Assembly (NCBI GenBank): GCA_964035575.1
Contig: OZ037838.1
Location: 1,612,001-1,676,000, forward strand
From: Rhynchopus sp. YZ270_cl-10
Lineage: Eukaryota; Euglenozoa; Diplonemea; Diplonemida; Diplonemidae
Direction of reading: 5' to 3'
Length of the DNA: 64,000 nucleotides
Below are positions 16,767 through 42,120 of this stretch, one piece after another (the first letter of the stretch is position 1; each line of letters begins with the position of its first letter). The translations under genes were made by a program, and so were the position numbers. Under the pieces are notes generated by a model. That model had not been told where the DNA came from. It did not search any database and saw nothing but the letters and a program-made list of their open reading frames with translations.

Positions 16767-17326
16767 ATGGATGTGACCTTTGTGCTGGAAGAGTCAGGCG
16801 TGACTGCGACAGTGGAGGTGCCGTGCGAGGCGGACGTTGCAGCGGCAAAGGAGGTTGCGTGCACGGCGCTTGCTGTCTCGCCTGCGTCTGTCAAGATGCG
16901 CATCGGCACGCAGGTGCTGGAGGGGACGTGCCGTCTGCAGGACACTGCGTTTGATGCAGGGGTGCAGGTTGTGCTTGCCCGCCGCTTTGCCGACATCAAG
17001 TGTCCTGCTGAGTACACTGTACCACCGCATACGGAACACTTTTTTTTGTCGCTGTCTTCTTGTGGAACACTTTGCGTTTATTCCCATAATGGCGTGTCCA
17101 CGCGTGTTGGTGGCTTCAACACGGAAACCTTCGAGACTGCGTTTGAGTTGGAAATCGATTTATCTGGTCGAGGTCCGCCTGTCATCTCTCGATGCAAGAC
17201 ACGCTGCTACATGGCGTGCAAGGAAGGTCTGCACGAGGTTGCGCTTCCGGGTGGGGAGGTGCTCCGCAAAGTCGACGGCAACTCAATAGCAGTGTTCGCG
17301 TGTGGTGGTGTTGTTGTCTCCCAAGG
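16767..17326 (+). pseudogene. Ubl-propeller family copy 8, 5' part, cut by element E1
   Basis: From ATG 16,767 the ubiquitin-like domain, linker, blades 1 and 2 and the start of blade 3 are intact (last family residues ACGGVVVSQG). At 17,327 the sequence changes abruptly to the left end of element E1. The last seven bases before it, CCCAAGG (17,320-17,326), recur at 42,114-42,120. After that point blade 3 resumes with GEDGVSVYDEDLTLL. The near-perfect match of both halves to copies 9 and 12 shows that the insertion is recent relative to the divergence of the family. Confidence 0.95.
17320..17326. repeat. 7-bp target duplication of E1, left
   Basis: CCCAAGG, repeated at 42,114-42,120. Copy 12 shows the uninterrupted site (GTCTCCCAAGGTGAAGACGG), containing CCCAAGG once. 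Confidence 0.95.
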
Positions 17327-17885
17327 TAGGGGGTCTCCTGGTCAGTACATTAGCTGTCCGAAAAATTAGTAAATAAATAAAAAATGCTCTATGTGCTCAG
17401 AAACGGCACAGGGGTCCCCCAGAAAACATTTTCTGCACAATTCGTCACAACCCGCACTGGATTAGTGCCTTTTTTTGGGCCTAAAATTCAAAAATTCAAA
17501 AATGGCTTTGTACAAGGGCGTTTTTTGCGTGTTTTTTCATGATTTTTCAAAGTCGCCAAAAATCATGTAAAATACGGCTTCCCACCCAACATTCTCCCCA
17601 CAGCGTCGTTCTGACACCCATATGCCCCAAAAAAACAGGTTTTTTTATATTTTTTTCCACACCCAATGCATCATAAAAAATACACATTTCCACCAAACTC
17701 TACTAACCCACCGCACCCACAGAAAAATTTCTTAACTATGTGTACCTAAGTGTTCAAAGCGACGCGTTTTTAAAAAAAAGTAAAACAAAATCATAAAAAA
17801 TGGGGTAAAACGCCACCTGGGGTCACAAGGCCCAGGCTCCTACCTTTACAGGTAGGGGAGCTGTTGAGTGACCCATCGGAAAATG
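17327..17885 (+). repeat. E1 left-terminal conserved region
   Basis: This region is highly similar to 26,425-26,965 (E4). It is more diverged from 24,392-24,940 (E3), yet shared phrases such as TTTTTCATGATTTTTCAAAG and CCCACCCAACATTCTC stay in the same order. E2 keeps only the first 80 bp or so. No reading frame is conserved, so the constraint is probably on DNA or RNA sequence. Confidence 0.85.
17837..17860. repeat. Hairpin block next to the 122-bp array (E1)
   Basis: CTCCTACCT, loop TTAC, AGGTAGGGG forms a 9-bp stem with one mismatch pairing. It is embedded in a conserved block from GGGGTAAAACGCCACCTGGG to TGAGTGACCCATCGGA. The same block is at 24,897-24,920 (E3) and 26,921-26,943 (E4), each time just before the array begins. 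Confidence 0.8.
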
Positions 17886-17908
17886 GGTCAATGTCTATTC
17901 ATGAAATC

Positions 17909-20900
17909 TTTTGAGCCGTACTGTATTGTGCCAATTGGTCGCCAGCTAAAATGTCACTAATCAAACCAGTCTTTACATCTGTAACCTGTCTTATGGGTGC
18001 ATGCTGCGTGCGCTGGCTGCAATTGCGATATTTTGAGTCGAATTATATTGTACTAATTGGTCGCCAGCTAAAATGTCACTATTCGAACCAGTTCTGTCTT
18101 CTGTAACGTGTGTTATGGGTGTATGCTGCGTGCGCTGGCTGCAATTGCGATATTTTGATTCAAATTGTATTGTACTAATTGGTCGCCAGCTAAAATGTCA
18201 CTATTCGAACCAGTTCTCACATCTGTAACCTGTCTTATGGGTGTATGCTGCGTGCGCTGGCTGCAATTGCGATATTTTGAGTCGAATTATATTGTACTAA
18301 TTGGTCGCCAGCTAAAATGTCACTATTCGAACCAGTTCTCACATCTGTAACCTGTCTTATGGGTGCATGCTGCGTGCGCTGGCTGCAATTGCGATATTTT
18401 GAGTCGAATTATATTGTACTAATTGGTCGCCAGCTAAAATGTCACTATTCGAACCAGTTCTCACATCTGTAACCTGTCTTATGGGTGTATGCTGCGTGCG
18501 CTGGCTGCAATTGCGATATTTTGAGTCGAATTATATTGTACTAATTGGTCGCCAGCTAAAATGTCACTATTCGAACCAGTTCTCACATCTGTAACCTGTC
18601 TTATGGGTGCATGCTGCGTGCGCTGGCTGCAATTGCGATATTTTGAGTCGAATTATATTGTACTAATTGGTCGCCAGCTAAAATGTCACTATTCGAACCA
18701 GTTCTGTCTTCTGTAACGTGTGTTATGGGTGTATGCTGCGTGCGCTGGCTGCAATTGCGATATTTTGATTCAAATTGTATTGTACTAATTGGTCGCCAGC
18801 TAAAATGTCACTATTCGAACCAGTTCTCACATCTGTAACCTGTCTTATGGGTGCATGCTGCGTGCGCTGGCTGCAATTGCGATATTTTGATTCAAATTGT
18901 ATTGTACTAATTGGTCGCCAGCTAAAATGTCACTATTCGAACCAGTTCTCACATCTGTAACCTGTCTTATGGGTGCATGCTGCGTGCGCTGGCTGCAATT
19001 GCGATATTTTGAGTCGAATTATATTGTACTAATTGGTCGCCAGCTAAAATGTCACTATTCGAACCAGTTCTGTCTTCTGTAACGTGTGTTATGGGTGTAT
19101 GCTGCGTGCGCTGGCTGCAATTGCGATATTTTGATTCAAATTGTATTGTACTAATTGGTCGCCAGCTAAAATGTCACTATTCGAACCAGTTCTCACATCT
19201 GTAACCTGTCTTATGGGTGCATGCTGCGTGCGCTGGCTGCAATAGTGATATATAGATTCAAATTGTAATGTACTAATTGGTCGCCAGCTAAAATGTCACT
19301 ATTCGAACCAGTTCTGTCTTCTGTAACCTGTCTTACGGGTGCATGCTGCGTGCGCTGGCTGTAATTGCGATACTTTGAGTCAGATTGTATTGTACTAATT
19401 GGTCGCCAGCTAAAATGTCACTATTCGACCTAGTTCTCACATCTGTAACGTGTCTTATGGGTGTATGCTGCGTGCGCTGGCTGCAATAGTGATATATAGA
19501 TTCAAATTGTAATGTACTAATTGGTCGCCAGCTAAAATGTCACTATTCGAACCAGTTCTCACATCTGTAACCTGTCTTATGGGTGCATGCTGCGTGCGCT
19601 GGCTGTAATTGCGATATTTTGAGTCGAATTGTATTGTACTAATTGGTCGCCAGCTAAAATGTCACTATTCGAACCAGTTCTCACATCTGTAACGTGTCTT
19701 ATGGGTGTATGCTGCGTGCGCTGGCTGCAATAGTGATATATAGATTCAAATTGTAATGTACTAATTGGTCGCCAGCTAAAATGTCACTATTCGAACCAGT
19801 TCTCACATCTGTAACCTGTCTTATGGGTGCATGCTGCGTGCGCTGGCTGCAATTGCGATATTTTGAGTCGAATTGTATTGTACTAATTGGTCGCCAGCTA
19901 AAATGTCACTATTCGAACCAGTTCTGTCTTCTGTAACGTGTGTTATGGGTGTATGCTGCGTGCGCTGGCTGCAATTGCGATATTTTGAGCCGAATTGTAT
20001 TGTACTAATTGGTCGCCAGCTAAAATGTCACTATTCGAACCAGTTCTCACATCTGTAACGTGTCTTATGGGTGCATGCTGCGTGCGCTGGCTGCAATTGC
20101 GATATTTTGAGTCAAATTGTAATGTACTAATTGGTCGCCAGCTAAAATGTCACTATTCGAACCAGTTCTGTCTTCTGTAACGTGTGTTATGGGTGTATGC
20201 TGCGTGCGCTGGCTGCAATTGCGATATTTTGAGCCGAATTGTATTGTACTAATTGGTCGCCAGCTAAAATGTCACTATTCGAACCAGTTCTGTCTTCTGT
20301 AACGTGTGTTATGGGTGTATGCTGCGTGCGCTGGCTGCAATTGCGATATTTTGAGTCGAATTGTATTGTACTAATTGGTCGCCAGCTAAAATGTCACTAT
20401 TCGAACCAGTTCTGTCTTCTGTAACGTGTCTTATGGGTGTATGCTGCGTGCGCTGGCTGCAATTGCGATATTTTGATTCAAATTGTATTGTGCTAATTGG
20501 TCGCCAGCCAAAATGTCACTTTTCGAACCAGTTCTTAGATCTGTATCCTGTCTTATGGGTGCATGCTGCGTGCGCTGGCTGCAATAGTGATATATAGATT
20601 CAAATTGTAATGTACTAATTGGTCGCCAGCTAAAATGTCACTATTCGAACCAGTTCTGTCTTCTGTAACCTGTCTTATGGGTGCATGCTGCGTGCGCTGG
20701 CTGTAATTGCGATACTTTGAGTCAGATTGTATTGTACTAATTGGTCGCCAGCTAAAATGTCACTATTCGACCTAGTTCTCACATCTGTAACGTGTCTTAT
20801 GGGTGTATGCTGCGTGCGCTGGCTGCACTTGCAATATTTTGAGTCAGATTGTATTGTACTAATTGCTCGCCAGCTAAAATGTGACTATTCGAACTAGTTC

Positions 20901-23064
20901 TGTCTTCTGTAACGTGTCTTATGGGTGTATGCTGCGTGCGCTGGCTGCACTTGCAATATTTTGAGTCAGATTGTATTGTACTAATTGGTCGCCAGCTAAA
21001 ATGTGACTATTCGAACTAGTTCTGTCTTCTGTAACGTGTCTTATGGGTGTATGCTGCGTGCGCTGGCTGCACTTGCAATATTTTGAGTCAGATTCTATTG
21101 TACTAATTGGTCGCCAGCTAAAATGTCACTATTCGAACCAGTTCTGTCTTCTGTTACCTGTCTTATGGGTGTATGCTGCGTGCGCTGGCTGCACTTGCAA
21201 TATTTTGAGTCAGATTGTATTGTACTAATTGGTCGCCAGCTAAAATGTCACTATTCGAACTAGTTCTGTCTTCTGTAACGTGTCTTATGGGTGTATGCTG
21301 CGTGCGCTGTCTGCACTTGCAATATTTTGAGTCAGATTGTATTGTACTAATTGGTCGCCAGCTAAAATGTCACTATTCGAACTAGTTCTGTCTTCTGTTA
21401 CCTGTCTTATGGGTGTATGCTGCGTGCGCTGGCTGCAATTGCGATATTTTGATTCAAATTGTATTGTACTAATTGGTCGCCAGCTAAAATGTCACTATTC
21501 GAACCAGTTCTGTCTTCTGTAACGTGTGTTATGGGTGTATGCTGCGTGCGCTGGCTGCAATTGCGATATTTTGAGCCGAATTGTATTGTACTAATTGGTC
21601 GCCAGCTAAAATGTCACTCTTCGAACCAGTTCTCACATCTGTAACCTGTCTTATGGATGCATGCTGGGTGCGCTGGCTGCAATTGCGATATTTTGATTCA
21701 AATTGTATTGTACTAATTGGTCGCCAGCTAAAATGTCACTATTCGAACTAGTTCTGTCTTCTGTAACGTGTCTTATGGGTGTATGCTGCGTGCGCTGGCT
21801 GCACTTGCAATATTTTGAGTCAGATTGTATTGTACTAATTGGTCGCCAGCTAAAATGTCACTATTCGAACTAGTTCTGTCTTCTGTAACGTGTCTTATGG
21901 GTGTATGCTGCGTGCGCTGGCTGCACTTGCAATATTTTGAGTCAGATTGTATTGTACTAATTGGTCGCCAGCTAAAATGTCACTATTCGAACTAGTTCTG
22001 TCTTCTGTAACGTGTCTTATGGGTGTATGCTGCGTGCGCTGGCTGCAATTGCGATATTTTGAGTCGAATTGTATTGTACTAATTGGTCGCCAGCTAAAAT
22101 GTCACTAATCGAACTAGTTCTCACATCTGTAACCTGTCTTATGGATGCATGCTGCGTGCGCTGGCTCCAATTGAGATATTTCGAGAAGAATTGTATTGTA
22201 CTAATTGGTCGCCAGCTAAAATGTCACTATTTGAACCAGTTCTGTCTTCTGTAACCTGTCTTATGGGTGCATGCTGCGTGCGCTGGCTGCAATTGCGATA
22301 TTTTGAGTCAGATTGTATTGTACTAATTGGTCGCCAGCTAAAATGTCACTAATCGAACTAGTTCTCACATCTGTAACCTGTCTTATGGATGCATGCTGCG
22401 TGCACTGGCTCCAATTGAGATATTTCGAGAAGAATTGTATTGTACTAATTGGTCGCCAGCTAAAATGTCACTATTTGAACCAGTTCTGTCTTCTGTAACG
22501 TGTGTTATGGGTGTATGCTGCGTGCGCTGGCTGCACTTGCGATATTTTGAGTCAGATTGTATTGTACTAATTGGTCGCCAGCTAAAATGTCACTATTTGA
22601 ACCAGTTCTGTCTTCTGTTACCTGTCTTATGGGTGTATATGCTGCGTGCGCTGGCTCCAATTGAGATATTTTGAGAAGAATTGTATTGTACTAATTGGTC
22701 GCCAGCTAAAATGTCACTATTCGAACCAGTTCTCACATCTGTAACCTGTCTTATGGGTGCATGCTGCGTGCGCTGGCTCCAATTGAGATATCTTGAGAAG
22801 AATTGTATTGTACTAATTGGTCGCCAGCTAAAATGTCACTATTCGAACCAGTTCTGTCTTCTGTAACCTGTCTTATGGGTGCATGCTGCGTGCGCTGGCT
22901 ACAATTGAGATATTTTGAGCCGAATTGTATGGTACTAATTGGTCGCCAGCTAAAATGTCACTATTCGAACCAGTTCTCACATCTGTAACCTGTCTTATGG
23001 GTGCATGCTGCGTGCGCTGGCTGCAATTGCGATATTTTGATCCGAATTGTATTGTGCTAATTGG
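17909..23064 (+). repeat. 122-bp tandem array A in E1, about 42 units
   Basis: Units start CTAATTGGTCGCCAGCTAAA and contain ATGGGTGCATGCTGCGTGCG about 60 bp later. The period is 122 bp throughout. Variants alternate between CACATCTGTAACC and GTCTTCTGTAACG types and between GAGTCGAA, GATTCAAA and GAGAAGAA types, so higher-order blocks exist. Short open frames beginning MYCTNWSPAKMSLFE recur but are an effect of the repeat: 122 is not a multiple of three. Confidence 0.97.
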
Positions 23065-23617
23065 TTATGAAGGGACGTGTCTTATTCTTGCGGTATATTT
23101 TGGATGATATCGGCTACGCTGCGGTGCTCGCAACAGCTGGGGGTGGTGGTGGAGATGTGATGCAGGTGCTGACATTGAGGTAAAGAACAAGGACGCTGCG
23201 TGTTGAGAAGGTGTCGGTCAGAGCAGATGCGGAAGTGTGTGTCACAGACAACAATCGAAACACATGTCTTACCCTTGCGGCACATCACACCGAGACTGTA
23301 CGCACTCTTCTGTGCCTGCCTGAGGTGGATTGTGTGAATCAGTCAAATACGAGCGGCTTCACTCCACTGCATGGCGCAGTGTCACAGAAACACCCAGATG
23401 TGTCGAAGTTGCTCATTGATGCAGGGGCAGACATCGAAGCCGTTAATTACATAGGCACCTCTTCACTGTGCTTGTGAGGTTGGGGCACTCGAAATTGTGG
23501 AGATGTTGGTGAAAGCAGGTGCGGACGAGAGTGTGGTGGACAACAAGAGTCACACATCTCTCAACATTGCGGCATATCGTGGGCATACCGAGACTGTGCG
23601 CTATCTTGTGGGCTTGC
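23065..23617 (+). pseudogene. Ankyrin-repeat coding region (E1 cargo), broken and cut by E2
   Basis: Ankyrin signatures are clear: GFTPLHGAVSQKHPDVSKLL with IDAGADIEAVN, and later VEMLVKAGADESVVD and GHTETVRYLVGL. The region spans at least four repeats but is spread over more than one frame, so it is not a working gene as it stands (about two breaks besides the insertion). It begins directly after the last unit of array A and ends where E2 starts at 23,618. Ankyrin repeats mediate protein binding. Here the region occupies the cargo position that OTU and USP genes hold in the other elements. Confidence 0.8.
23611..23617. repeat. Presumed target site of E2 (one side only)
   Basis: GGCTTGC precedes the E2 left end. 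No second copy adjoining a CCCCCTA end was found in the window. Confidence 0.5.
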
Positions 23618-23698
23618 TAGGGGGTCTCCTGGTCAGTATATTAGCTGTCCGAAAAATTAGTAAATAAATATAAAATGCTCTATGTGCTCAGAAACGGC

Positions 23699-23866
23699 AT
23701 AACTTGACATGTGTTTATGGAATTGGTCCCGTACCAAGGTGTCTTGTTCGGTGTGATTTGTGCTGAAATGGATAGATTCTGAGGGTAAATGCTGCAAGCG
23801 CTAGGTATTCCGTGACGCAAATAAATTGACATGTGTTTGTGGAATTGGTCCCGTACCACAACCGCA
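23699..23866 (+). repeat. C-type 122-bp repeat remnant in E2
   Basis: About 1.4 units with TGGAATTGGTCCCGTACCA and GGTAAATGCTGCAAGCGCTA, the same type as the array at 27,030-27,775 in E4. Confidence 0.85.
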
Positions 23867-23875
23867 ACCGCAATA

Positions 23876-24384
23876 ATTAGGGAAGACGGCTGGCAAGCGG
23901 AAGAGAGATGAGAGTGATGCAGAGAGTGATGCAAAGAAGCAGAAGAAGTCCACTGCAAAGAATGCTGCTGCGAACAGCCAGGGGAAAGAGGAGTCTGCGA
24001 GTGGGGTGAAGCGCAGCAGTGATGACGGCGCCGATGCCGAGTGGCCCGGACTCGATATCGCTATGGCTGTGAGCAAGCAGGAGTCCGCAGGCCCGGCGGC
24101 AGGGACGACACGTGCCAGTGGGTTGCCACATGGAATACAGGATACGGGGTTTCTGCACCAGGAAGAACTTCTGGTGCACAACATGTAGAGGGTTCTCCCC
24201 ATTGCGCTGGACGATGTGGAAGATTCGACCTATGGATTCTCCTCTTTGCACATGGTGGGATACGAAACCTCCTTAGCAGTGTCGCCGCCAGGATTCCAGG
24301 CCAATGATGTGACGTCGCTCACCTCGCGCCCTATCGCAACTCGGGGAGACGGAGCATGTGCGTTGCATGCGTTGCTGGGGAGGC
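23876..24384 (+). pseudogene. OTU-like protease region, N-terminal half (E2 cargo), broken
   Basis: A lysine- and acid-rich stretch with nuclear-signal-like GKRKRDESDAESDAKKQKKS leads to the OTU catalytic signature ATRGDGACALHALLG, where Asp and Cys fit the GDG.C motif of the OTU cysteine protease family. No ATG is seen at the 5' side, where the coding stretch abuts the repeat remnant. The region is broken in more than one place and is interrupted by E3 directly after the catalytic helix. OTU enzymes remove ubiquitin or related modifiers; activity of this copy is unlikely. Confidence 0.8.
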
Positions 24385-24391
24385 ATTTGTT
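24385..24391. repeat. 7-bp target duplication of E3, left
   Basis: ATTTGTT, repeated at 41,025-41,031 after the right end of E3. Confidence 0.93.
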
Positions 24392-24896
24392 TAGGGGATG
24401 GCTAGCTACCATGAACCCCTGTCCAAAGTATTAATATTTCTCGAAAATTCTCTAAGTACACAGAAAACACACGGGTGTGCCCCAAAACACATTTTTTCCA
24501 GTGTCCCGCAGTGTCCCACCACTTTTTTTCGCTTTTTGTGGGAAAAAAAATACAAAAAAAAATACATGGTTCTGTAGGGGCCGAGTACAATGGCGTTTTT
24601 CACGTGATTTTCATGATTTTTCAAAGTGGCCAAATATCATGTAAAATACTGCCTCCCACCCAACATTCTCTCCACAACGTCGTTCTGACACCCATATGTC
24701 CAAACAAAAGATGTTTTTATATATTTTTTTCCACACCCAGCGTATCATAAAAATGCACATATCCACCAAAATCCACTAACCCACCGCAGGCAAATTTCTT
24801 AACGATGTGTACTTCTGAATTGATGCTGAGGGATTATGCGGCAACCGCTGCGTAGTTCTGTGGGGTAAAACGCCACCTGGGGTCACAAGGCCCAGG

Positions 24897-24920
24897 CTCC
24901 TACCTTTACAGGTAGGAGAG
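24897..24920. repeat. Hairpin block next to the 122-bp array (E3)
   Basis: CTCCTACCT TTAC AGGTAGGAG, here a perfect 9-bp stem, within the same conserved block as in E1 and E4. The G-to-A change relative to E1 restores pairing. Confidence 0.8.
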
Positions 24921-24959
24921 CTGTTGAGTGACCCATCGGACAATCGTTTGAGGGGTCTT

Positions 24960-26312
24960 GGTGAAGAATTTCGAAAATTGATAAAAACGAAAAAGCGTCT
25001 CACAAATTAACCCAGATTCTGCTCCAGATGTGATGTCTTGGTCTGTTTCTGCCTGAATTGTGTAAGGGGGCCCGATTTTGTTGCGGAAAATTACGAAAAT
25101 TATTGAAAACCAATAAGCGCCTCACAATTGAACCCAGATTCTGCTCCAGATGCGATGTTTTGGTCTGTTTCTGCCTGAATTGTGTAAGGGGGCCCGATTT
25201 TGTTGCGATAAATTACGAAAATTGATGAAAACAAATATGCGTCTCACAATTGAACCCAGATTCTGCTCCATATGCGATGTTTTGATGTGTTTCGACCTGA
25301 ATTGTGTGAGGGGGCCCGATTTTGTTGCGGAAAATTACGAAAATTGATGAAAACTAATATGCGTCTCACAATTGAACCCAGATTCTGCTCCAGATACGAT
25401 GTTTTGATGTGTTTCTGCCTGAATTGTGTAAGGGGGCCCGATTTTGTTGCGGAAAATTACGAAAATTGATGAAAACAAATATGCGTCTCACAATTGAACC
25501 CATATTCTACTCCAGATGCGATGTTTTGATGTGTTTCTGCCTGAATTGTGTAAGGGGCCCCGATTTTGTTGCGGAAAATTACGAAAATTATTGAAAACCA
25601 ATAAGCGCCTCACAATTGAACCCAGATTCTGCTCCAGATACGATGTTTTGATGTGTTTCTGCCTGAATTGTGTAAGGGGGCCCGATTTTGTTGCGGAAAA
25701 TTACGAAAATTGATGAAAACAAATATGCGTCTCACAATTGAACCCAGATTCTGCTCCAGATTCGATGTTTTGATGTGTTTCTGCCTGAATTGTGTAAGGG
25801 GGCCCGATTTTGTTGCGGAAAATTACGAAAATTATTGAAAACCAATAAGCGCCTCACAATTGAACCCAGATTCTGCTCCAGATTCGATGTTTTGATGTGT
25901 TTCTGCCTGAATTGTGTAAGGGGGCCCGATTTTGTTGCGGAAAATTACGAAAATTGATGAAAACAAATATGCGTCTCACAATTGAACCCAGATTCTGCTC
26001 CAGATTCGATGTTTTGATGTGTTTCTGCCTGAATTGTGTAAGGGGCCCCGATTATGTTGCGGAAAATTACGAAAATTATTGAAAACCAATAAGCGCCTCA
26101 CAATTGAACCCAGATTCTGCTCCAGATACGATGTTTTGATGTGTTTCTGCCTGAATTGTGTAAGGGGGCCCGATTTTGTTGCGGAAAATTACGAAAATTG
26201 ATGAAAACAAATATGCGTCTCACAATTGAACCCAGATTCTGCTCCAGATGCGATGTTTTGATGTGTTTCTGCCTGAATTGTGTAAGGGGGCCCGATTTTG
26301 TTGCGATAAATT
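24960..26312 (+). repeat. 122-bp tandem array B in E3, about 11 units
   Basis: Units contain CACAATTGAACCCAGATTCT, GCGATGTTTTGATGTGTTTC and AAGGGGGCCCGATTTTGTTG. Two alternating variants are visible (GATGAAAACAAATATGCGTC and TTGAAAACCAATAAGCGCCT), giving partial 244-bp higher-order blocks. The period is 122 bp, as in arrays A and C. Confidence 0.96.
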
Positions 26313-26424
26313 AGTAGGCAGATTGAGAATGCGCTAAGAACGTATGTGGAGGAGAGTGTGGATACACTGATGGACGCTGGCGTATCCGCTGTGAAGAAGT
26401 TTGTTAGCTGTGGTGTGTTCCCTA
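26313..26424 (+). CDS. 5' part of the USP gene, separated by E4
   Basis: An open stretch directly after array B reads SRQIENALRTYVEESVDTLM then DAGVSAVKKFVSCGVFP, up to the E4 insertion. The frame matches the frame that resumes at 36,090 (CVEKCVGAEVAGDTAAENAM). The only ATG here is at 26,370. The in-frame TAA at 26,307 lies in the last array unit, so the gene starts within or at the edge of the array. With E4 in place, the large downstream frame would have to use the ATG at 36,149. Confidence 0.7.
26418..26424. repeat. 7-bp target duplication of E4, left
   Basis: TTCCCTA, repeated at 36,083-36,089. Confidence 0.93.
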
Positions 26425-26920: not shown

Positions 26921-26943
26921 CTCCTACCTTTCCAGGTAGGGGA
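26921..26943. repeat. Hairpin block next to the 122-bp array (E4)
   Basis: CTCCTACCT TTCC AGGTAGGGGAG, with the same surroundings as in E1 and E3; the loop base A is replaced by C. Confidence 0.8.
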
Positions 26944-32392: not shown

Positions 32393-32728
32393 GGTTGTTT
32401 CTGCGAGCCCCGACCTAAACCGTTCATCTTCAGAGATATGTACAGTGTGCGCACTACTTTCCGCAGGAAGAACGGGCCCATTTTGGGCTCCGACCTCAGA
32501 GGCCGTTTTCGAAGACAGCTACAGTGGGATATTTTGGTTCCTCAATTTTTTATAACAAAAGCGAAAATCTGCCTATGTGCTTGAAAAATGCTGTGCATTT
32601 TTGGTAGAATTTTTTAAAAATTGCTATACTCCCCTATGACTGGACCCAACTCCCCTCACTCTTTTTTTGGTCAAAAACACCCCAAATTTTTCTACCGTTT
32701 TTTCCGTTTTTTCCGTTTTTGACCTTTT

Positions 32729-32880
32729 TAGACACCCTCCTTTAAAAAAAAAAATCTAAGATCTTAAGAAAAAAACTAAGATCTTAACAAAAAACACTAA
32801 GATCTTACTTAATTAAAAAAAAACACTAAGATCGGTCATATCTTAATTAAGATCTTTTGTAATCCATGTAGACACCCTCC
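32729..32880. repeat. AAGATCTTA palindrome cluster between 12-bp direct repeats
   Basis: TAGACACCCTCC at 32,729-32,740 and again at 32,869-32,880 bracket about 128 bp containing four or more CTAAGATCTTA-like palindromes. It could be a small foldback insertion with a long target duplication, or a local duplication. Confidence 0.6.
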
Positions 32881-34069
32881 AGAGTCGAGTTTTTTTTTTT
32901 TTTTTTTGACATGTGGTGTTCGCGAAGTCGATATTGACAGGGCGCTGACAAGTCGGGGACCGATTTCCGAAAGCACCAACATAGCGAAAAAAATAAAAAT
33001 CAAAAAACACGGGTTGCCTACGATCGTAGTACGATCTCTTACGATCGCAGCTCTTTTTTGATCGCACTACGATCGTACTACGATCAAAGTACGGTCGTAG
33101 TACGATCGTACTTACGATCGTATTATGATCGTACGATCGTACTACGATCGTAACGATCGTAGTACGATCGTAATGATCGTAGTACGATCGTAGTACGATC
33201 GTACGATCTTCCTTCTAAGGTGCTCGCTCTCCATACCTAGACCCTCGAATTTTTTTTTTTGCCCCTATATTGGGCTAATTTCGACGATTTGAGGCCATTA
33301 AAAGCAAAATTTGGCACTTTTGAGCATCTAGGGGGGTCTAAAACGCGGTTCCGCGAACCCAAAATTTCGTGATTTTTACCAAAAACAAGTCGATTTTTGA
33401 AAAAATCTCAAAAAAAAAAATCCCAATTTTTTTTTTCACAAGTGTTTTTGAGGCCTGCTCACTACACCCTAGGTACCCTTCTGGGACCAAAAAGTCAAAA
33501 AAAGCAAGAATTGGGCTGTTTTGAGCATCTAGAGTTAATTCCCCAGTCATTTTCTGTACCACCAGTGCATTTTGTATGGGCCAGCGCCTTGTCAAAAAAT
33601 CAAAAAATCTCAAAAAAAAAAATTTTTTTTCGGGAAAATTTCGACCCCTGAGTTGGGTTTTTGGGCACCAAAAAGTGCAAAAAAACGCAAAAATCGGGTG
33701 TTTTGACGATCTGGGGGTAACTATATGCACTACTACAGGGGCCCACAATATCGACTTTTCCTTAGCAAATTCCTTGGAGTATTGCATGCCTTGAAGTGTT
33801 GCATTTTGTCCCCACTGAGTGTGCACTCAGAAAACACTCATCAATAAAACGACCTTTCTGTTCGGTAAAAAATAGTTATTTTCTATTGTAGTAGTGGGTT
33901 TGTCGTGCAGTGATGTTCTTTGTACCTGGAGAGTGGGCCGAGTGCAAGGTATGTTTTTAACCCCCCGGTTTTCTCCCTTTTCGACATGTCCGCTATTTTT
34001 TTTTTTTTTTGAAAACTTGGTTGTATTAGTGTAGCCACCCTAGAGTGTGCTCCACTATACTAAACATTT

Positions 34070-34627
34070 TTATGTCACCGCAGACGAGCGCGATGATCTC
34101 TCTTGTGTGGCAGATGTCACACTGATGTCGCTGATACTACTACCCACCGGGCCATCATCAGATGGGGGTGGCGGGGCGGAGGGGGGGGCATTGATGACGG
34201 ATTTCTTCCGTTTTTTGGCAGTTTTGTCGCATGCTCTGGGGGAAGACGAGCGTTTTCTTTTTGAAGAACGTGTTGATGGATTCTGTTTACGGGAGGGGGG
34301 AGAAACAGAACGCTTTAGTTTTAAAATACGGTTGGGCTCAGGGTCACCCTCAGCAGGCGGCACGTCATTCGCGGCAGGCCGATCTCCCGCTGCGAGGACG
34401 TCGTCGATCATGTCACCCTCCGATGTGCCAGCAGAGGAGGTTGGAGGTGAAGACCACCTAGATGCTCTAGCTGATATGCTAGGGCCGTAGGCATCGAGTG
34501 GTGCAGTTCCCCATGCCGCGTCAGCGAGCCATCGGACGGACCTTGACAGCTGTGACCTGATAACAGCGATGCTATCGACACCTAGACGGGCACGTTTTTT
34601 TTTTTTTTTTGTCAACAAAAATGTCAC
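34070..34627 (-). CDS. Ser/Pro/Lys-rich hypothetical frame (185 aa), weak
   Basis: Minus-strand frame starting at 34,627. A poly-Lys start arises from a T run. It then has a possibly structured piece (ARLGVDSIAVIRSQLSRSVR then WLADAAWGTAPL) followed by disordered, basic sequence with nuclear-signal-like SSKRKRSSSP and KKRKKS. The composition could be coding for a disordered protein, but there is no domain and no second line of support. It is the only sizeable frame in the GATCGTA element. Confidence 0.3.
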   Translation of the reverse strand: MTFLLTKKKKKRARLGVDSIAVIRSQLSRSVRWLADAAWGTAPLDAYGPSISARASRWSSPPTSSAGTSEGDMIDDVLAAGDRPAANDVPPAEGDPEPNRILKLKRSVSPPSRKQNPSTRSSKRKRSSSPRACDKTAKKRKKSVINAPPSAPPPPSDDGPVGSSISDISVTSATQERSSRSSAVT

Positions 34628-34639
34628 TTTTACGTGGGG

Positions 34640-35812
34640 TACGGGGCGGCTTCTTGTTTGTTTGTTTTTTTGTTGTAGTCTCTACTTTTACATTCAATTT
34701 CTCTTATCAGGTACCCGAACCGACGACCCTTCATCGTGACAGCGAAGCAGTGCCCACGGAAGAGCTGGTGCAATTATTTCAAAACCAGGTGGCGATCGTA
34801 AAAGTCGGGTTTATATACCAACTTTTCCATTAACCCACCCCAGACCACCCTAATTATTATGAAACTCTTAGTCAGTCACTGCTATAGCCATTTAACCCAG
34901 GGAGCATAGCTAGTGCAAGAAATTCGACTTCGGGATCCGGAAAGTCTGTCCTCTGCTTGCGGAGGACTAGACACAAGAAAATATTGCGTTCCCCCAGAAT
35001 ACTAATTTTTGTCACAGTAATTTTTGCCCAGGGCATGCTCTTGAAGCATGGCGGCTTGGTGTGAGAAGGGGCAGTGTGTTGTTTTGTTCTAGATTTCAAC
35101 GGTTGTTAGAACGAGTCAAGTGGATGCTTATCTAAACACTGACTTTAGTACAGACCCGAGAGATCACACATGACTTTGAGGAAAGAACAAAGCAATGCAT
35201 CTGTACCCGCACGCCAGGTTGTAGTTACTTCAGAATTTTCTTGAGTTTGCATGAACGAGGAGGGGGTGATTCATTCTTCGGGAACGCTTAGTATACCATG
35301 GAATGATCATCTCAAAAAAACAGTGGGGGCTGAATTCATATCCCTTAGAATTGCGAATTCAGCCTTTGCAGAAGGTACGTCTTACTTGTACTTGTACTTG
35401 TATGCCGTGTCACCCTTCTCAACCTTACCGGTTCACAGCTCGCAAGAGCAATGTAACCCTTCTCGCTATTGCAAACTTAAGAATTTTCTGCTGTAACTTA
35501 CCAAAATCGATTTTCTTTCACCCCAAACACCCGCAACACCCCACCTGCTACTTCGGTAGCCTGTGTTGTTGGGAGTTGGTTCTCATGTTGATCCCCAGTG
35601 ACTGTCTAGCACTGCTTCTTCTGAGCCCAACGTTGTTTGGCCTGTCGACGTAATAAATACGAAGACAGGGCGGCGGTGCCAACAATTTTCCAATGATGTA
35701 ACGTTTTATCTGATTGATTATCGTTTGATATACCTTGTGTGTGCTTCATGCACACCATGCAAGGAATATCGAACGGTATTTCAAGCGATATTCGTTATTT
35801 CGTTTGGCAAAC
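34640..35812. other. Gene-poor interior of the GATCGTA element
   Basis: No convincing gene, satellite or RNA. TACTTGTACTTG is repeated near 35,380. Confidence 0.4.
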
Positions 35813-35997
35813 GTACTACGATCGTACTACGATCGTAATGATCGTACTACGATCGTACTACGATCGTTTACGATCGTAGTACGATCGTAGTTGATCGTAG
35901 TACGATATTTTACGATCGTTACGATCGTTTTTTGGTACGATCGTAAACGATCGTACTACGATCGTAGGCAACCCGTGAAAAAAAAAAAATTTTTTTT

Positions 35998-36082
35998 TTT
36001 TTTGGAAAAAAACGGCCCAAAACGACAAATTAGTTTTTAGGACAAAAATTTCCTCACAAATCGTTAAGCATGGAACCCCCTA
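35998..36082. repeat. E4 right-terminal conserved stretch
   Basis: AACGGCCCAAAACGACAAAT, TAGTTTTTAGGACAAAAAT and CCTCACAAAT occur in the same order and spacing as at 42,029-42,113 (E1). This is the family's right-end signature. Confidence 0.85.
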
Positions 36083-36089
36083 TTCCCTA
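36083..36089. repeat. 7-bp target duplication of E4, right
   Basis: TTCCCTA, identical to 26,418-26,424. Confidence 0.93.
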
Positions 36090-36148
36090 GGTGCGTAGAG
36101 AAGTGTGTTGGCGCCGAGGTAGCTGGGGATACGGCTGCGGAAAACGCG

Positions 36149-39100
36149 ATGAGTGCTGTGGTAGAGTTGTGTGGAGCTGTGACTTGTGGTGACGGCGACT
36201 ACTTCGCGTTGACTGCAACAGACATGCAGTCGTTGCACAAGCGGCACGCGGCGGCGAAATGGGACGCTTCCATTGTGGAGAATTTGCGCAGGAACTGTGA
36301 TGGGGACGTAGCGACGGAAGACCGTGGTCCGCTCGCACAGTACGCGATGGAGACGTACACGGCGCAACAGGCCCGGAATGTGCTGCACGACATCGCAGAC
36401 GCATCGGACCAGGAGGAGCAGGAGCGGATCAAGGCGTCGTTAAACAGTACAGTGGACAAGTTACCTGCTGTGAACGAGGTGTTGAGCTGCATAAAAGCGT
36501 CGGAGGTCGCATATTCCGCATTCACCTCTGCTTACAAGCGTATGAGCAAAGGAGCGAGGTTTGACTGGAACATTGTCAAGATTCCTGACGCACTGCCCAA
36601 GGTTGTGCGCACACGCCTCAAGCTGTTCCTCACGCCTCTGGAGGACGCCGTCGCGGACAAGTTTTCCCAAGATGGCTGCAGGCTACTCTCTGATTGCAAG
36701 AACCTGACTGTTCCTTCGTCAGGAGTCAGCATGCGGTCAGGCCGTCAGGGCGTTCCTCCTTCACCTGTCACGGTGGAGCAGTATTTAGTGCAGTCTGGGT
36801 GGGGCCACGATGACCTGAAGCGCTTCGCTGCGATGACCGAGAAGTGGCAACATGACAATAAGGTCATGAAGACGTACGCGAGAGCGGTGGGCGGGTACAT
36901 TGCGGTGCAGCATCTTCTCGGTCTTCTGGGAACACAGGACCAGCGTGATCGCCGATACGTCAAGAACTTGTCTTGGAAGAAGGCAATAACTGAGCAGTGG
37001 GAGTTGGGGAGAAGCAGTGGCGAACAAGTGGTGAGGAAGAGTGGGTTCCTGAGCATGGCAGTGTTGCAGACCCTTGTGTACGACTGCACTGGCAAAAGGT
37101 GGGAGCTCAGCCGCACACAGGAGGCTTTGGTGAGGGATAAGTACATCCTCATCTGTTCGTACGCAAATCCGACCAGCATGGCGGGAGACCCGAAGAGGAG
37201 AGAAGGGGACTACTTCGCAGGCGTTCGCGAAGAGGACCGGTCAACAAGGGATGGGTGTCTGCGATACCGTCTGCACTCCTCGCAACACGGCACCGTCGGG
37301 TATCGCGACGTCGAGGGGAGGTTCCCCCATTCGGTGATGTACGTTGCGAGGGAGAAAAAGACGCCAGAAGAACCTGTGCGGCAACAGCCGGTCAAGAATT
37401 TGAAGAAACCCGGATTTATTCAGCAGTTCAACACCTCGCAGGCTAAGCAGCAGCAGAAGGACAAGGTCGAGAACAGGAAGCGCGAAGAAGAGGTGGCCGA
37501 AACGGCACGCAAGTACTCTTCGCAAGTTGCGCAGCTCCCGTACCGGTTTCTCTTCCCCTCAACTTTGCACGAAGAGTGCGGCGAAGGACGCAACAAGCAG
37601 TTGCTGGAAGAGCACCGACTGGCGGATCCTGTGACACAGGAAGGTGCGTGGGCGTGCCTCAACTGGGTGCGCCAGTCGGTGACCTCGTGCGGAGAGCCGA
37701 ACAGGAAGATGACGAGGTTTTCCTGGGAGCAAATGCTGCACTTTCAGCAAATTGCGACCTTGCGGAGCAAAGCGGTGTGGAACGAAGACCCGAAGGAACT
37801 GAGCCTGCACTGGAGAGGTCTGTTTGACGTGGCTTGCGTGAGGCACGCAGTGGCATCCTTGTTTCCTGACTGGATATGCTCCTCCATACCGCTTCATCGG
37901 GAGGAGGGGAACCAGCAGGCGACATTGTGCAAAGATGCGCACCTGCACGACACGGTCCGCGCCCTCATGTTTGAGAGAGACGGGCATTGGGTGGTGGTTT
38001 TGGTTGTGTCGTATTCCCCAGAGATCGACCTCGGGGACCCAAACACTGAGACGACCGGATTTGTGGTGAAGGACACGGACAGGGCTGAGAAGCGTTTCGG
38101 CCTGTTGGACGACGCCATCGACCACGCCACCAGAGGGCAACCATTTTCCTGGGAAGCTCCGCTGGTACTTGCCGTGAAGCGGGGAAACTTCAAGGGAAGG
38201 TTCCACACTGCTGCCACCCTGCAGGTGTACGCCATCCGGAAGGTGAACCGCAGAGTGACGGACGCTGTGCTGGCGGATGAGGCACGTGCTTGGGCAGCCC
38301 GTTGCTTGGAGACGTTGACGGAGACGCTGAATGCAGAGATTCAGCACGTGATGAATGCGGCACGTGAGGCTGTGAGTATCCGTGTTGATGAACTTCGGGA
38401 CTACCTGTGGCAGCGGAGGCGAACGCCGCACGTTGTGTCTTCCTTGTGTGACTTGGTGCGCAGGGGCATGGGTAGTGCTGTGCAGTGTGCGAAGCTGCGC
38501 GGTGGCAGCGACACAGTCCTGAGGAATTTGCTGGAGGACACAGTGGGTGCTACGAACGAACGCACGAACGACATGTCTGAGTCTGAAGATGACCGATCAG
38601 GAGCGGTGAGCTGCGAATTGTTCCCTGTGTCGGAGCCACCACCAGCAGCACCAGCAGCACCAGCAGCACCAGCAGCACCAGCAGCACCAGCAGCACCAGC
38701 AGCACCAGCAGCACCAGCAGCACCAGCAGCACCAGCAGCACCAGCAGCACCACCACCAGTACCAGCAGAAAGTCCGAGGAAGCGGAGGAGAGCTGGGACT
38801 GATGCATCCCAGAATGTTGCAAAGAAGCGTAAGTCTGCACCGAAGAAGCACGGTCAGCAGCAACAGAAGCAGCAGCCACCACAGAAGCCACAGCAACCAC
38901 AGCAGCCACAACAGCCACAGCAGAAGCCACAGCAACCACAGCAACCACAACAGCCACAGCAGAAGCCACAGCAACCACAGCAGCAGCAGAACCCACACCA
39001 GCCAGGCGTTGGGGAGGCGGAGGAGATGGAGCAATTGCAGGCTGCCCTTGATGCAACGCTCCACCAGCCTCCACCAGTGCCGAGGGGGTTCCATAACTTC

Positions 39101-40036
39101 GGCGTGACGTGTTTCATCAACTCTGTTTTACAGTGTTTAGTGTACACGGACTCGTTTGTGAAGTCCCTCTCGGATGCTGGCCCTTTTTCGAGGGCAATAC
39201 GCGAAGTGGTGGCTCAGTCAGTGACTGCGGATGCACAAGATGTGATCCGCCCTACGAGCATACGCGACGCATTAAATGCGAAGGAGCCTCGGTTCACGGC
39301 TACGCAGCAAGACTGCCACGAGTTTTTTCTTGTGCTGACGGACGCCCTCGAGGTGGAGGCAAGACGTGGGAAAGTTAAACATCCCACCAACGAAGTGCTG
39401 GATCATGAGACTTTGTCTGTGGCCTCGGCACGAGTAGTGAACTCTTACCTCGAGAGTTCTAATTGTCCAGCAATGGGTTTTCTTTATCTACAGTATGTCC
39501 AGACAGCCACTTGTTTTGGCTGTGACACTAAGTGCCTCACCGTCACCCCCTCACACAATATGATATTGCACTTCCCCACGCGGGACACCGGTTCATTGCC
39601 AGTGGCATTGGGTGCGTTACTTCAGCACCTCTCTAGGGTGGAAGAAATGCACGCAGAGCAGGAGTACAAGTGCCTGACCTGCCACCCGCAGACCTTCGCA
39701 GCCAGAATGGTGACACGTGTGATGCGGCTGCCAAATGTTTTGGCAATGCAATTGGCGAGGTTTCACGACCCGCTCAATAAGATCGAGACGATCGTTGAAC
39801 TTCCGCATGAGTTGGACATGGCACCATACGTGCACTCTGACTCTCTAGAGGTGCAACTTCGGTATGACCTGTATGGTGTTGTCTGTCACCACGGACACAG
39901 GATGGGGCACGGCCACTACAGTGCATACGTGAAGTCAGAGGGTACGTGGTATCATTGCAATGATTCAAGTGTGACAAAGAACCCGAGGCTTCTCTTTTCA
40001 GAGGCATACCTTCTTTTTTATCATCGTCGGGGGTGA
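36149..40036 (+). CDS. USP-type deubiquitinase, large (1,295 codons from this ATG)
   Basis: The C-terminal third is a ubiquitin-specific protease domain. The Cys box is RGFHNFGVTCFINSVLQCL with catalytic Cys988. Two CxxC pairs (CFGC and CLTC) match the zinc-ribbon fingers of the family. The His box GHGHYSAYVKSEGTWYHCND supplies His1256 and Asn1271/Asp1272. USP enzymes are thiol proteases that cut ubiquitin from proteins. The first 830 residues are not recognised; they include a basic coiled stretch near 430-460 and a hydrophobic DGHWVVVLVV segment that only weakly recalls other thiol-protease folds. Between them lie a PAA repeat (about residues 831-872) and a Gln/Pro repeat (about 900-950) with KKRK motifs. 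The frame is open upstream to the E4 edge at 36,090 and continues the frame of 26,313-26,424. All catalytic residues are present. Confidence 0.93.
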   Translation: MSAVVELCGAVTCGDGDYFALTATDMQSLHKRHAAAKWDASIVENLRRNCDGDVATEDRGPLAQYAMETYTAQQARNVLHDIADASDQEEQERIKASLNSTVDKLPAVNEVLSCIKASEVAYSAFTSAYKRMSKGARFDWNIVKIPDALPKVVRTRLKLFLTPLEDAVADKFSQDGCRLLSDCKNLTVPSSGVSMRSGRQGVPPSPVTVEQYLVQSGWGHDDLKRFAAMTEKWQHDNKVMKTYARAVGGYIAVQHLLGLLGTQDQRDRRYVKNLSWKKAITEQWELGRSSGEQVVRKSGFLSMAVLQTLVYDCTGKRWELSRTQEALVRDKYILICSYANPTSMAGDPKRREGDYFAGVREEDRSTRDGCLRYRLHSSQHGTVGYRDVEGRFPHSVMYVAREKKTPEEPVRQQPVKNLKKPGFIQQFNTSQAKQQQKDKVENRKREEEVAETARKYSSQVAQLPYRFLFPSTLHEECGEGRNKQLLEEHRLADPVTQEGAWACLNWVRQSVTSCGEPNRKMTRFSWEQMLHFQQIATLRSKAVWNEDPKELSLHWRGLFDVACVRHAVASLFPDWICSSIPLHREEGNQQATLCKDAHLHDTVRALMFERDGHWVVVLVVSYSPEIDLGDPNTETTGFVVKDTDRAEKRFGLLDDAIDHATRGQPFSWEAPLVLAVKRGNFKGRFHTAATLQVYAIRKVNRRVTDAVLADEARAWAARCLETLTETLNAEIQHVMNAAREAVSIRVDELRDYLWQRRRTPHVVSSLCDLVRRGMGSAVQCAKLRGGSDTVLRNLLEDTVGATNERTNDMSESEDDRSGAVSCELFPVSEPPPAAPAAPAAPAAPAAPAAPAAPAAPAAPAAPAAPAAPPPVPAESPRKRRRAGTDASQNVAKKRKSAPKKHGQQQQKQQPPQKPQQPQQPQQPQQKPQQPQQPQQPQQKPQQPQQQQNPHQPGVGEAEEMEQLQAALDATLHQPPPVPRGFHNFGVTCFINSVLQCLVYTDSFVKSLSDAGPFSRAIREVVAQSVTADAQDVIRPTSIRDALNAKEPRFTATQQDCHEFFLVLTDALEVEARRGKVKHPTNEVLDHETLSVASARVVNSYLESSNCPAMGFLYLQYVQTATCFGCDTKCLTVTPSHNMILHFPTRDTGSLPVALGALLQHLSRVEEMHAEQEYKCLTCHPQTFAARMVTRVMRLPNVLAMQLARFHDPLNKIETIVELPHELDMAPYVHSDSLEVQLRYDLYGVVCHHGHRMGHGHYSAYVKSEGTWYHCNDSSVTKNPRLLFSEAYLLFYHRRG
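38640..38765 (+). repeat. PAA codon repeat in the USP gene
   Basis: CCAGCAGCA repeated about 13 times in frame, coding Pro-Ala-Ala. It is likely a flexible spacer between the unknown N-terminal part and the protease domain. Confidence 0.9.
38855..38995 (+). repeat. Gln/Pro codon repeat in the USP gene
   Basis: CAACCACAGCAGCCACAA-type units code QQPQQPQQKPQQ. Like the PAA stretch, this is a low-complexity linker. Confidence 0.9.
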
Positions 40037-40667
40037 TTCTTTTTGGTGCATCGAGACGTTACGTGTTCTTTATAAGATTGTCTGATGGAGGCAGTATCGG
40101 CGACAGTGGGGGAAATAGAGGGGGGTATGAGTTCAGAGAGACTGGGGTTATTGTCTCAGGACCGAGTCAGGTAGTTGAACTTCATCCTTTTTTAAATAGT
40201 GTGGATCTTTGCAGTCGTCGGTTATGTCTGAAAATTCTTAAGTCCACTTTGTGAGGGCCTTTCATTAACATTAAAGGCCACTTTTGTTTTTTTTTTTCAC
40301 GAATTGTTTCTCTCTCGCCTTGTCTTCATTTCAAGTTATGCCACACCCCTCTCAGCAGCCTGCTGATCAGAGTAAATGTTAAAGTATCAGCCTTTCTAGG
40401 TGTTCTTGAGTGAACAATGCAAGCATCCTCTCCAAAGCTTTTCTGTTGCGATTCTTTCTATTTGTTCCGATTTAGCCTTTTCACAAGTTGTGTAATAGTT
40501 GCAAGCACTCTGTTTTGTCAGTTTCTCTTCCTTCTTCGACCAACAAAGATACCACACCACCCCAGACCCTTTCCAATTTTTCATTTCCTCTATTCTTCCC
40601 ATCCAAGCCCTCCCCACACAATTCTGTTCCAGATGTAAATCTTGCCATAATTAAACCATTTCTGTAA
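40037..40667. other. 3' flank of the USP gene
   Basis: No further gene. Pyrimidine-rich DNA (TTTTTTTTTTTCACG, CTTCCTTCTTCGACC) which could carry processing signals. Confidence 0.4.
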
Positions 40668-40870
40668 TCTGTGATCGTGCCGCAGGCGCAAGCGGCACTT
40701 GAAACATTTGAAACAACATTGTATTGTGCTAATTGGTCGCCACCTGAAGTATCCGTAATTGAACTAGTTATCAAATCTGTGGTCAGTCTCATGGACGAAT
40801 CATTGAATGCTGCATGCGCTGCCGACAATTGAAACGTTTGAAACAATATTGTATTGTACCAATTCACGCG
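40668..40870 (+). repeat. Diverged A-type 122-bp repeat units near the right end of E3
   Basis: CTAATTGGTCGCCACCTGAA and AATGCTGCATGCGCTGCCGA, with ATTGTATTGTGCTAATTGG, correspond to the array A unit. E3's main array is type B, so this shows A-type sequence outside its own array. Confidence 0.7.
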
Positions 40871-40971
40871 AGAGCCCCCAACCCCAAAATTCTGGGAGGA
40901 AAAAAAGGGGGAAACAAAAAAAAAATAAAAATAAAAATAAAAAAAATGCCGGAAAACGCCTAAGTACAAAA

Positions 40972-41024
40972 TAATACTTTGGACAGCTTTTTGTGAAGGA
41001 ATTACCCTAGCTATCCACCCCCTA
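40972..41024. repeat. E3 right-terminal region
   Basis: TAATACTTTGGACAG (inverse of 24,419-24,433) and the terminal TAGCTATCCACCCCCTA. Confidence 0.85.
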
Positions 41025-41031
41025 ATTTGTT
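41025..41031. repeat. 7-bp target duplication of E3, right
   Basis: ATTTGTT, identical to 24,385-24,391. Confidence 0.93.
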
Positions 41032-41850
41032 GCATGGCGAGATTGTGTGCCGAGGTCTGCCAGATGTGACGGAGTCACAGCTCAGGGACAGGCCTTGGCA
41101 TCATGCCAGGGTATATGCGTTGAGAGAGCTCGTCAAGCATAGTGGCTTGTTCTTGAGGTGTGCCCGACAGTTTTGCGGCTTGACTCCAAGCTCGATAAGC
41201 ACTGTGCGGACGCGAAGGCCGAGTTGACCAGACTCGAGTCGCTACGAGGTGCTCTCATTTTCGAGCACGTCAAGGCTAGGGATTTGTGTGCTGAAGATTC
41301 GCAGTTCTTACTGGAAATGAGGACGCTGCATGAACTTCATCGCGAGATGAGTCACGCGGACTTCATGCCACACGTGAATCCGGATTTGTGCAATGAGGGT
41401 TACAAGACGTGTGACCACATTCGTGAACGTGTGCGCGACGTTGCTGTTGCTGATCTCTTCCCGCAGGATGAGGCTGTTCAGCGTCAGACAGATGTGATCA
41501 CGCGCAAGCAGGAGGAGTTCTATTCCTCAAGAGGCGTACAGGAAGAAGTTCGTCAGTCGGGACTATTACCTGTCTGTGAAGAAATCGAGGCAGTGGCAGT
41601 GGCGTTCGACAAAAGGGTGCTATTGGTCCACGAGGACACCAATACTTGTGTTGTGATGAATCCGGAAGCGACCCATGTTCGCGTCATCCTGCAACAAGGG
41701 GATACAGCAGCACCTGAGAAGTGCCATTTCTCCCTGCTGAAACAAAACTCGCGCACGCCACCAAATTTCCAGTGTCCGCAGTGTCGCACCACTTATTTTT
41801 TTCGCATTTTGAGGGGGGGGAAATGCAAAATGAAAACAAAATTTTGGTAG
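41032..41850 (+). pseudogene. OTU-like protease region, C-terminal half (E2 cargo), broken
   Basis: Coding text resumes directly after the E3 duplication with HGEIVCRGLPDVTES. Further on, EEIEAVAVAFDKRVLLVHED followed by VVMNPEATHVRVIL and the segment KCHFSLL match the end of the OTU fold, where His in the (C)HF/HY position is catalytic. The stretch changes frame at least once, so with E3 inserted this copy is not functional. It reads into Cys-pair text (CPQCRTTYF) that is actually DNA related to the element's left-terminal region. Confidence 0.75.
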
Positions 41851-42113
41851 ATTCACAGAATTCAGATTTTTGCTAAGGTGCTGGCAGCTGGCCCCAAAAA
41901 AAAAAAAAAAATATTTCCCCCCCACATTTTTTGGTCCAGGGTCACAAAAAAAAATCTCCGATTCCTGAAACCCCAAATCCTGGCGGAAACCCTGCCGGGG
42001 GGGGAAAAACAAAAAAAAAAAATTTTGTTTTTTTTGACAAAAACGGCCAAAAACGACAAAATAGTTTTTACGACAAAAATTCCTTCACAAATTGTACAGG
42101 ATGAGACCCCCTA
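41851..42113. other. Right-terminal region of E1 (possibly merged with E2)
   Basis: A/T tracts are followed from 42,029 by the right-end signature shared with E4, ending GAGACCCCCTA. Only one right end is found where two nested elements (E1, E2) should each have one. Confidence 0.75.
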
Positions 42114-42120
42114 CCCAAGG
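42114..42120. repeat. 7-bp target duplication of E1, right
   Basis: CCCAAGG, identical to 17,320-17,326. Confidence 0.95.

Follow-up and report, generated by a model that had tools for sequence, protein, structure and literature searches.

How many transposons lie nested in the host gene at this locus, in what order did they arrive, and to what kind of element do they belong? The stretch analysed, referred to here as the window, comprises 64,000 nucleotides of Rhynchopus sp. YZ270_cl-10 (C6:1612001-1676000, within a 152-Mb assembly of 126 contigs, its genes being eukaryotic in appearance); feature coordinates are window positions. The original prediction placed here a four-deep nest of related DNA transposons, E1 to E4, inside a host gene. 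Three of these insertions—E1, E3, and E4, belonging to families F1, F3, and F4, respectively—are real, and the locus is probably a young stack of cut-and-paste transposons whose families share a large transposase-like protein with an exchangeable protease tail.

Three insertions and their order

The outermost element, E1 (17327..42113, plus strand), is bounded by the 7-bp duplication CCCAAGG, read at the junctions (17320..17326 and 42114-42120). The middle element, E3 (24392..41024, plus strand), is bounded by ATTTGTT (24385..24391 and 41025-41031), and the inner element, E4 (26425..36082, plus strand), by TTCCCTA (26418..26424 and 36083-36089). All three are defined by junctions and by sibling copies, the duplication is exact at each, and all start with TAGGGG and finish with CCCCTA, as had been predicted. 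E1 starts with TAGGGGGTCTC, and its right end is the same sequence inverted; on direct reading, the inverted ends agree at 14/16 positions in E3 and 12/15 in E4.

Each insertion had also been said to cut a coding region outside it, thereby giving the order in time, and this holds with one qualification. E1 splits a member of a tandem WD40-like family, the 5′ part of which (16563..17326, plus strand) resumes its frame at 42121 and ends at 42664; joining of the E1 flanks by script yields a 436-aa host frame running through the insertion site, with paralogs matched by blastp. E3 divides an OTU-like coding region of E1 into a 5′ part with one TAG inside (24093..24391, plus strand) and a 3′ part beyond E3 (41025..41850, plus strand). 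E4, in turn, cuts the USP-tailed frame of E3 into a 5′ part (26310..26424, plus strand) and a remainder encoding the body region, a Pro/Ala and Gln-rich linker, and the USP tail (36083..40036, plus strand), the joined frame being 1353 aa. The qualification concerns the OTU-like gene of E1, which F1 siblings carry in a form already interrupted by a TAG and a change of frame.

A search for empty sites had been recommended, and two were found. The un-nested F1 sibling L039 (C6:1337869-1341869; 4001 bp, flanked by CTCCACT, with a WD40-like gene other than that of E1 on both sides) carries uninterrupted GGCATTTGTTGCATGG with a single ATTTGTT, the empty site of E3, and the F3 sibling L091 on contig C50 has a single TTCCCTA within an open frame, the empty site of E4. 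These two empty sites, together with the restored host frame at E1, establish the order E1, E3, E4. The insertions are recent, because the compared parts differ from siblings by 0.2-0.5%: the right part of E1 is 99.5% identical to siblings, 2686 bp of the E3 open reading frame (ORF) are 99.8% identical to a sibling, and so are the left 600 bp of E4. Nesting recurs elsewhere, with an F1 copy lying inside F3 on C61 and both flanks matched; the window was picked for its nest and hence gives no rate.

How deep is the nest?

The presumed fourth insertion, E2, had been placed between E1 and E3 on the strength of a left end at 23618. This is a good left end of 82 bp (23618..23699, plus strand) with 97.6% identity to that of E1, and a true insertion here that has since lost its right end would account for it. 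Sibling comparison nevertheless shows the fragment to be inherited within F1. L039, L040, and L041 possess the same inner left end with an identical upstream 40 bp (40/40), making it older than this locus, and L042 has the inner left end with a different flank. The F1 sibling L043 yielded no second left end, and none of L039-L043 a partner right end followed by GGCTTGC. An insertion of E2 at this locus was therefore rejected as very improbable, and with it the four-deep nest of related elements. The most economical history would be that the F1 founder acquired the fragment long ago, either through an insertion, which the fragment may still mark, or through duplication of its left end; the same event would also have brought the 122-bp units typical of F4 into F1 and left an ankyrin frame between the two left ends of F1. 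Even less credence attaches to the idea that the nest is an artefact of assembly: long 122-bp arrays are generally difficult to assemble, but the locus has three exact duplications and two empty sites in siblings.

The nest is three deep for the TAGGGG...CCCCTA group, with an element bearing other ends inside E4 as a probable fourth layer. Comparison of E4 with its sibling L092 reveals two blocks that differ, designated X and E5/Q. The candidate innermost insertion, E5/Q (33008..35977, no strand assigned), has ends CACGGGTTGCC...GGCAACCCGTG within an A-rich tract of E4 and possesses its own inverted arms, distinct from TAGGGG...CCCCTA. Its insertion into E4 is probable rather than proven because L092 lacks E5/Q but has ~415 bp of other sequence at the site, leaving no clean empty site; any duplication is unreadable in the A-rich flanks. 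The Q family is represented by an unbroken copy in L066 and by one with an F-type element inside it in L044, and GATCGTAGTAC-type repeats occur within the ends of E5/Q. X (28324..32905, no strand assigned) is additional E4 sequence in place of the ~170 bp present in L092, and parts of it match the sequence on either side of the C14 copy of F1. Neither the ORF body nor any of the three protease tails described below has a match in the E4 copy of the window.

Target duplications across the genome

That all duplications are 7 bp is true of E1, E3, and E4 and becomes a majority rule once the genome is tabulated. The count rests on 19 copies with both ends read, namely E1, E3, and E4 plus five F1, six F3, and five F4 copies. 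Copies for which a single end was found (F1 on C32, C8, and C6:729 kb; two F3 copies on C50; F4 on C45) were excluded, as was an F3 copy on C61 with its 7-mer displaced by 4 bp. An exact 7-bp duplication, for which the chance of a match is 6e-5 per copy, occurs in 13/19; a further copy matches at 6 of 7 positions (F3 on C7, plus strand), three have 8 bp (F1 on C61, F1 on C96, and F3 on C7, minus strand), and two have none.

The sites of E1 and C6a are WD40-like genes, and those of E3, E4, and the F1 copy on C61 are other elements; 15/26 flanks had no match in a 13-entry library, and no search was aimed at tRNA or snRNA genes. Members of the WD40-like family have several F-type insertions within or next to them.

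A transposase-like protein with exchangeable tails

In a few related copies, a large ORF comprises a DDE transposase-like region, a shared body, a low-complexity linker, and a protease tail. The sole good copy of the transposase start belongs to the C32 element (L044), which has an F1-type right end and is read as two frames, o1 and o2 (o2 being 1770 aa). Read through, it displays GHD, then ADH after 66 residues, CCHH after 18 further, and TNDRAE after 271 further, so that D, D, CxxH, and E occur in order; the region is described as DDE transposase-like, and catalysis is presumed. A 646-aa frame on C35 (L095, C35:1223500-1225700), a distant relative with 20% identity (E 7.6e-4), keeps all four motifs as GQD, GDH, GCSSH, and SNDFVE. 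The first 60 residues of o1 were rejected as a transposase exon, since the uninterrupted L066 shows them to be part of the Q element that hosts the C32 copy.

Database searches added little. Pfam yielded nothing significant for the transposase region (the best match, Tcp11 at E 0.047 for a 917-aa piece, is weak and unrelated), likewise nothing for the C35 frame, and nothing useful for ten frames of E4 and E1. NCBIfam gave no significant match to the transposase region of the C32 frames; o2 matched at E 0.0061 and 0.53 and E3 once at 0.00066 with two weaker matches, the strongest of each lying over the repetitive linker. No match was found in the PDB for o1, the C35 frame, or a three-row profile. 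A protein database searched with the 853-aa read-through gave none among 7994 scored candidates (those sharing most words), and with an alignment query gave one among 7993 selected in like manner, P0007, which is the same frame in a public ENA record. Among viral contigs, 0 of 77 pattern matches were confirmed.

Over 524 columns the E3 ORF can be aligned with o2 (27%, E 7e-40); after this it passes through a repetitive linker into a USP domain (UCH, PF00443; 39086..40021, plus strand). The domain covers profile positions 2-254 of 254 at E 4.3e-44, has both Cys and His boxes with motifs at 985, 1253, and 1270, and has USP2 as its best solved relative (E 1.6e-27). Other copies carry other tails: that of o2 is Ulp1-like, and an OTU-like tail occurs in families F1 and F4, with 358 aa of it in the same open frame as the body in the F4 copy on C7.

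Relationships among bodies and among tails do not agree. The C32 body is 30% like that of E3, and the bodies of ORFs on C50 and C14 are 44% and 49% like E3 and 29% like C32; the last 509 residues of these two ORFs, however, are 100% identical to the C32 tail. Similarly, the F4 copy on C7 has a body 45% like C32, yet an OTU-like tail. The conflict shows that tails have been exchanged between bodies. Because the identical stretch starts at o2 residue 1262, just past a Gln/His-rich stretch at 1089-1245, the linker is suggested as the exchange point. Relatives of the OTU-like tail with 38-44% identity also occur on C76 and C91; the open frames there reach 3192-3670 aa and possibly belong to larger relatives of the group.

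The USP tail is open in 7/7 full-length copies, at an identity of at least 94%. Among F3 copies, the match to the E3 ORF begins at residue 1 in E3 and C50, at 320 on C5, at 582 on C61, and at 629 on C65, on C95, and in both the plus- and minus-strand copies on C7. Window positions 39422-40033 were compared with L042 and L096. Between E3 and C61, 204 codons contain 18 nucleotide differences in 14 codons, comprising 18 replacement and 0 silent changes, the other 120 USP-domain codons lying outside this letter-by-letter comparison. The neutral chance of 18:0 is 0.002-0.008 depending on transition bias, under an assumption of independence that four double-hit codons violate. Between E3 and C5, 5/5 differences in 143 codons are replacements, all common to C61 and so not a separate test, and the E3 body differs from L091 by 5 replacement and 0 silent changes. 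In the OTU-like tail of F4 against F1, one piece has 9 replacement and 2 silent changes, and the other has a lower rate of replacement (dN 0.11) than of silent change (dS 0.20); the replacement-only signal is therefore not general. The 18:0 pattern between E3 and C61 hints at diversifying selection on the USP tail. By eye, the changed codons cluster: 11/14 fall within residues 1120-1149 or 1251-1254, and the second of these stretches adjoins the His box.

What the elements are

On the best reading, these elements form a group of cut-and-paste transposons, superfamily unsettled, most of which are deletion derivatives. The three elements of the window and, as far as searched, every copy but one lack an intact catalytic half. 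Several observations weigh against this reading or parts of it. Two of the tabulated copies have no duplication (F1 on C14, with agreement over only 4 bp, and F1 on C22). The catalytic half is well preserved in 1/6 matches, the other five being partial or distant, and even the C32 copy is apparently left-truncated at AACCAT, missing the N-terminus, which is where hAT transposases have a BED zinc finger, and changes frame between o1 and o2, so that present-day activity is no more than possible. A single-sequence structure model of P0007, in which a transposase of the hAT, P, Kolobok, MuDR, or Dada type would be expected to have an RNase-H fold, was unusable, with a mean predicted local distance difference test score (pLDDT) of 36.7. 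The Ulp1-like tail of o2 has H, D, and C in order and matches C48 at E 0.058, scoring 13.7 bits against a cut-off of 20.7. The OTU-like tail has no Pfam OTU match; its motif GDGACALHA was read by eye, one 132-aa piece matches OTUD7B in the PDB at E 0.77, and the best PDB matches of its other half and of the whole 358 aa (E 0.97) are unrelated. Both assignments are thus tentative, and the TAG and frame change in F1 siblings suggest that the F1 OTU-like gene had probably been disrupted before the arrival of E3.

The duplication length had been taken as incompatible with hAT transposons and as a hint of an undescribed group. The terminal consensus of hAT elements is YARNG, which TAGGGG...CCCCTA of E1, E3, and E4 suits, and the hAT duplication of 8 bp, or 5-8 bp in subgroups, accommodates both the 13/19 copies with 7 bp and the 3/19 with 8 bp. 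Indeed, PMC12730594 describes hAT7 families whose duplications are 7 bp long, and hAT5 and hAT6 offer further precedents there; a query for 7-bp hAT entries even serves as an example in the text of PMC4455052. Seven base pairs as proof of a new superfamily was consequently rejected, and what is left of the suggestion of an undescribed group is a transposase region without a match in Pfam, NCBIfam, or the PDB.

A divergent, hAT7-like lineage offering nothing new beyond its unusual cargo is a contender with slightly less than an even chance. To the ends and the duplications can be added the order D, D, C/DxxH, E, though the account in PMC3706591 also gives this for Kolobok, P, and MuDR. Nevertheless, no Pfam hAT profile was matched at E up to 10 by the C32 frames, two L091 pieces, or the C35 relative, no NCBIfam hAT model by the C32 frames, and no PDB entry by o1, the C35 frame, or the three-row profile. 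Searches for Pfam P or THAP transposases were equally without match for the C32 frames and the C35 relative. A second alternative holds that the protease tails are host genes captured by chance, passengers without a role in transposition. The genome does contain further USP-like matches, mostly 25-48% identical, F1 also has ankyrin repeats that resemble cargo, and copies that lack the catalytic half are mobile all the same. This reading is nonetheless unlikely, for the tail sits at the C-terminal end of the transposase-body frame in several copies, the USP frame has stayed open in every full-length copy, and the same place is occupied by three protease types. It is doubtful, too, that the group is an undescribed cut-and-paste superfamily whose C-terminal USP, Ulp1-like, or OTU-like tail diversifies in an arms race with ubiquitin-based silencing or repair by the host.

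Several known systems resemble the group in part. Like the hAT7 elements of rust fungi, as described in PMC12730594, it has 7-bp duplications and an extra enzyme (TET/JBP in many hAT7 and a protease of ubiquitin (Ub) or ubiquitin-like (Ubl) proteins here); unlike them, it has no detectable Pfam hAT similarity, other cargo, and 122-bp arrays. Ginger1, in the account of PMC2836005, likewise joins a transposase to a C-terminal OTU or Ulp1 protease, with a tail that varies between families. It differs in having a Gypsy-type integrase, TGTNR ends, and 4-bp CCGG or CCGT duplications, where those found here are 7-8 bp, and the Ginger1 families tabulated in PMC2836005 include no USP tail such as occurs here. 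A USP-type domain (peptidase C19) fused to a transposase is known from Trichomonas XP_001314237.1, the transposase of which is a transposase_11 (pfam01609), set apart by its description in that paper. Dada elements resemble the group in their 6-7 bp duplications and a DDE domain with C/DxxH, as given in PMC3706591; they target tRNA or snRNA genes, however, and the U6 and U1 families have no terminal inverted repeats, whereas the insertion sites identified in this genome fall in WD40-like genes and in other elements, and the ends are short inverted repeats. Kyakuja of the KDZ group also has 7-bp duplications, according to the passages of PMC12730594 concerned, but CA...TG ends without inverted repeats, and no KDZ profile match was obtained here.

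Proposed mechanism and meaning

E1 entered the host WD40-like gene, E3 then inserted into E1, and E4 into E3, probably followed by E5/Q into E4. The group would be driven, now or formerly, by the large protein with its DDE transposase-like region, body, linker, and C-terminal Ub/Ubl protease. Staggered cutting at 7 bp (sometimes 8) would be followed by excision, and gap repair would lose the inner part of elements and expand their arrays, leaving derivatives that would be moved in trans by transposase supplied elsewhere. Exchange of the USP, Ulp1-like, and OTU-like tails would probably occur by recombination at the repetitive linker. The tail itself may remove ubiquitin or SUMO at the site, acting on the transposase or on host factors for silencing or repair.

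PMC2836005 proposes, but leaves open, that the ubiquitin pathway takes part in transposition, and its text already describes alternative OTU or Ulp1 tails in Ginger1 and the C19 tail on one Trichomonas transposase. What is added here is one group in one genome with three tail types, USP included, and a body/tail conflict that shows exchange. This amounts to a natural experiment, in that interchangeable tails would mean that the activity they have in common matters for mobility; an exchangeable protease tail may help the elements to deal with the host. Should more copies confirm that the USP tail changes by replacement only, the target of that activity would become testable.

Arrays and host family

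Subterminal tandem arrays of 122-bp units occur in all three elements: 42 copies in E1 (17922..23065, plus strand), an array in E3 (24967..26313, plus strand) whose right edge meets the ORF where the sibling L091 has 1018 bp more, and 6 copies in E4 (27029..27771, plus strand). With periods of 100-260 considered, the period is 122 in 25/27 rows from 19 loci (L066 gave no row, and the end of a locus truncates some arrays). In alignment score the left units exceed shuffles marginally or not at all, with 22 for E1-E3 (shuffle maximum 20), 20 for E1-E4 (24), and 21 for E3-E4 (24); counted by identities, E1-E4 left units reach 53, where shuffles reach at most 51. A clear relationship exists between the E1 unit and a right-subterminal unit of E3 and E4. 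The same period is found across three families although left units barely resemble one another, in about 2 to 42 copies. It might be guessed that the units are transposase binding sites.

The tandem WD40-like host family extends over window 8063-63471 and contig C6, with 534 first-look candidates genome-wide and 39/40 of those scored lying on C6. The neighbouring family ORFs are single-frame and mostly 376-435 aa, and beta-propeller matches in paralogs are weak, falling under curated cut-offs. Elsewhere in the window, a perfect 7-bp repeat, GGTACTG, is present in ~89 copies at 696-1316, and a 133-bp tandem array of ~17 copies lies at 5226-7512.

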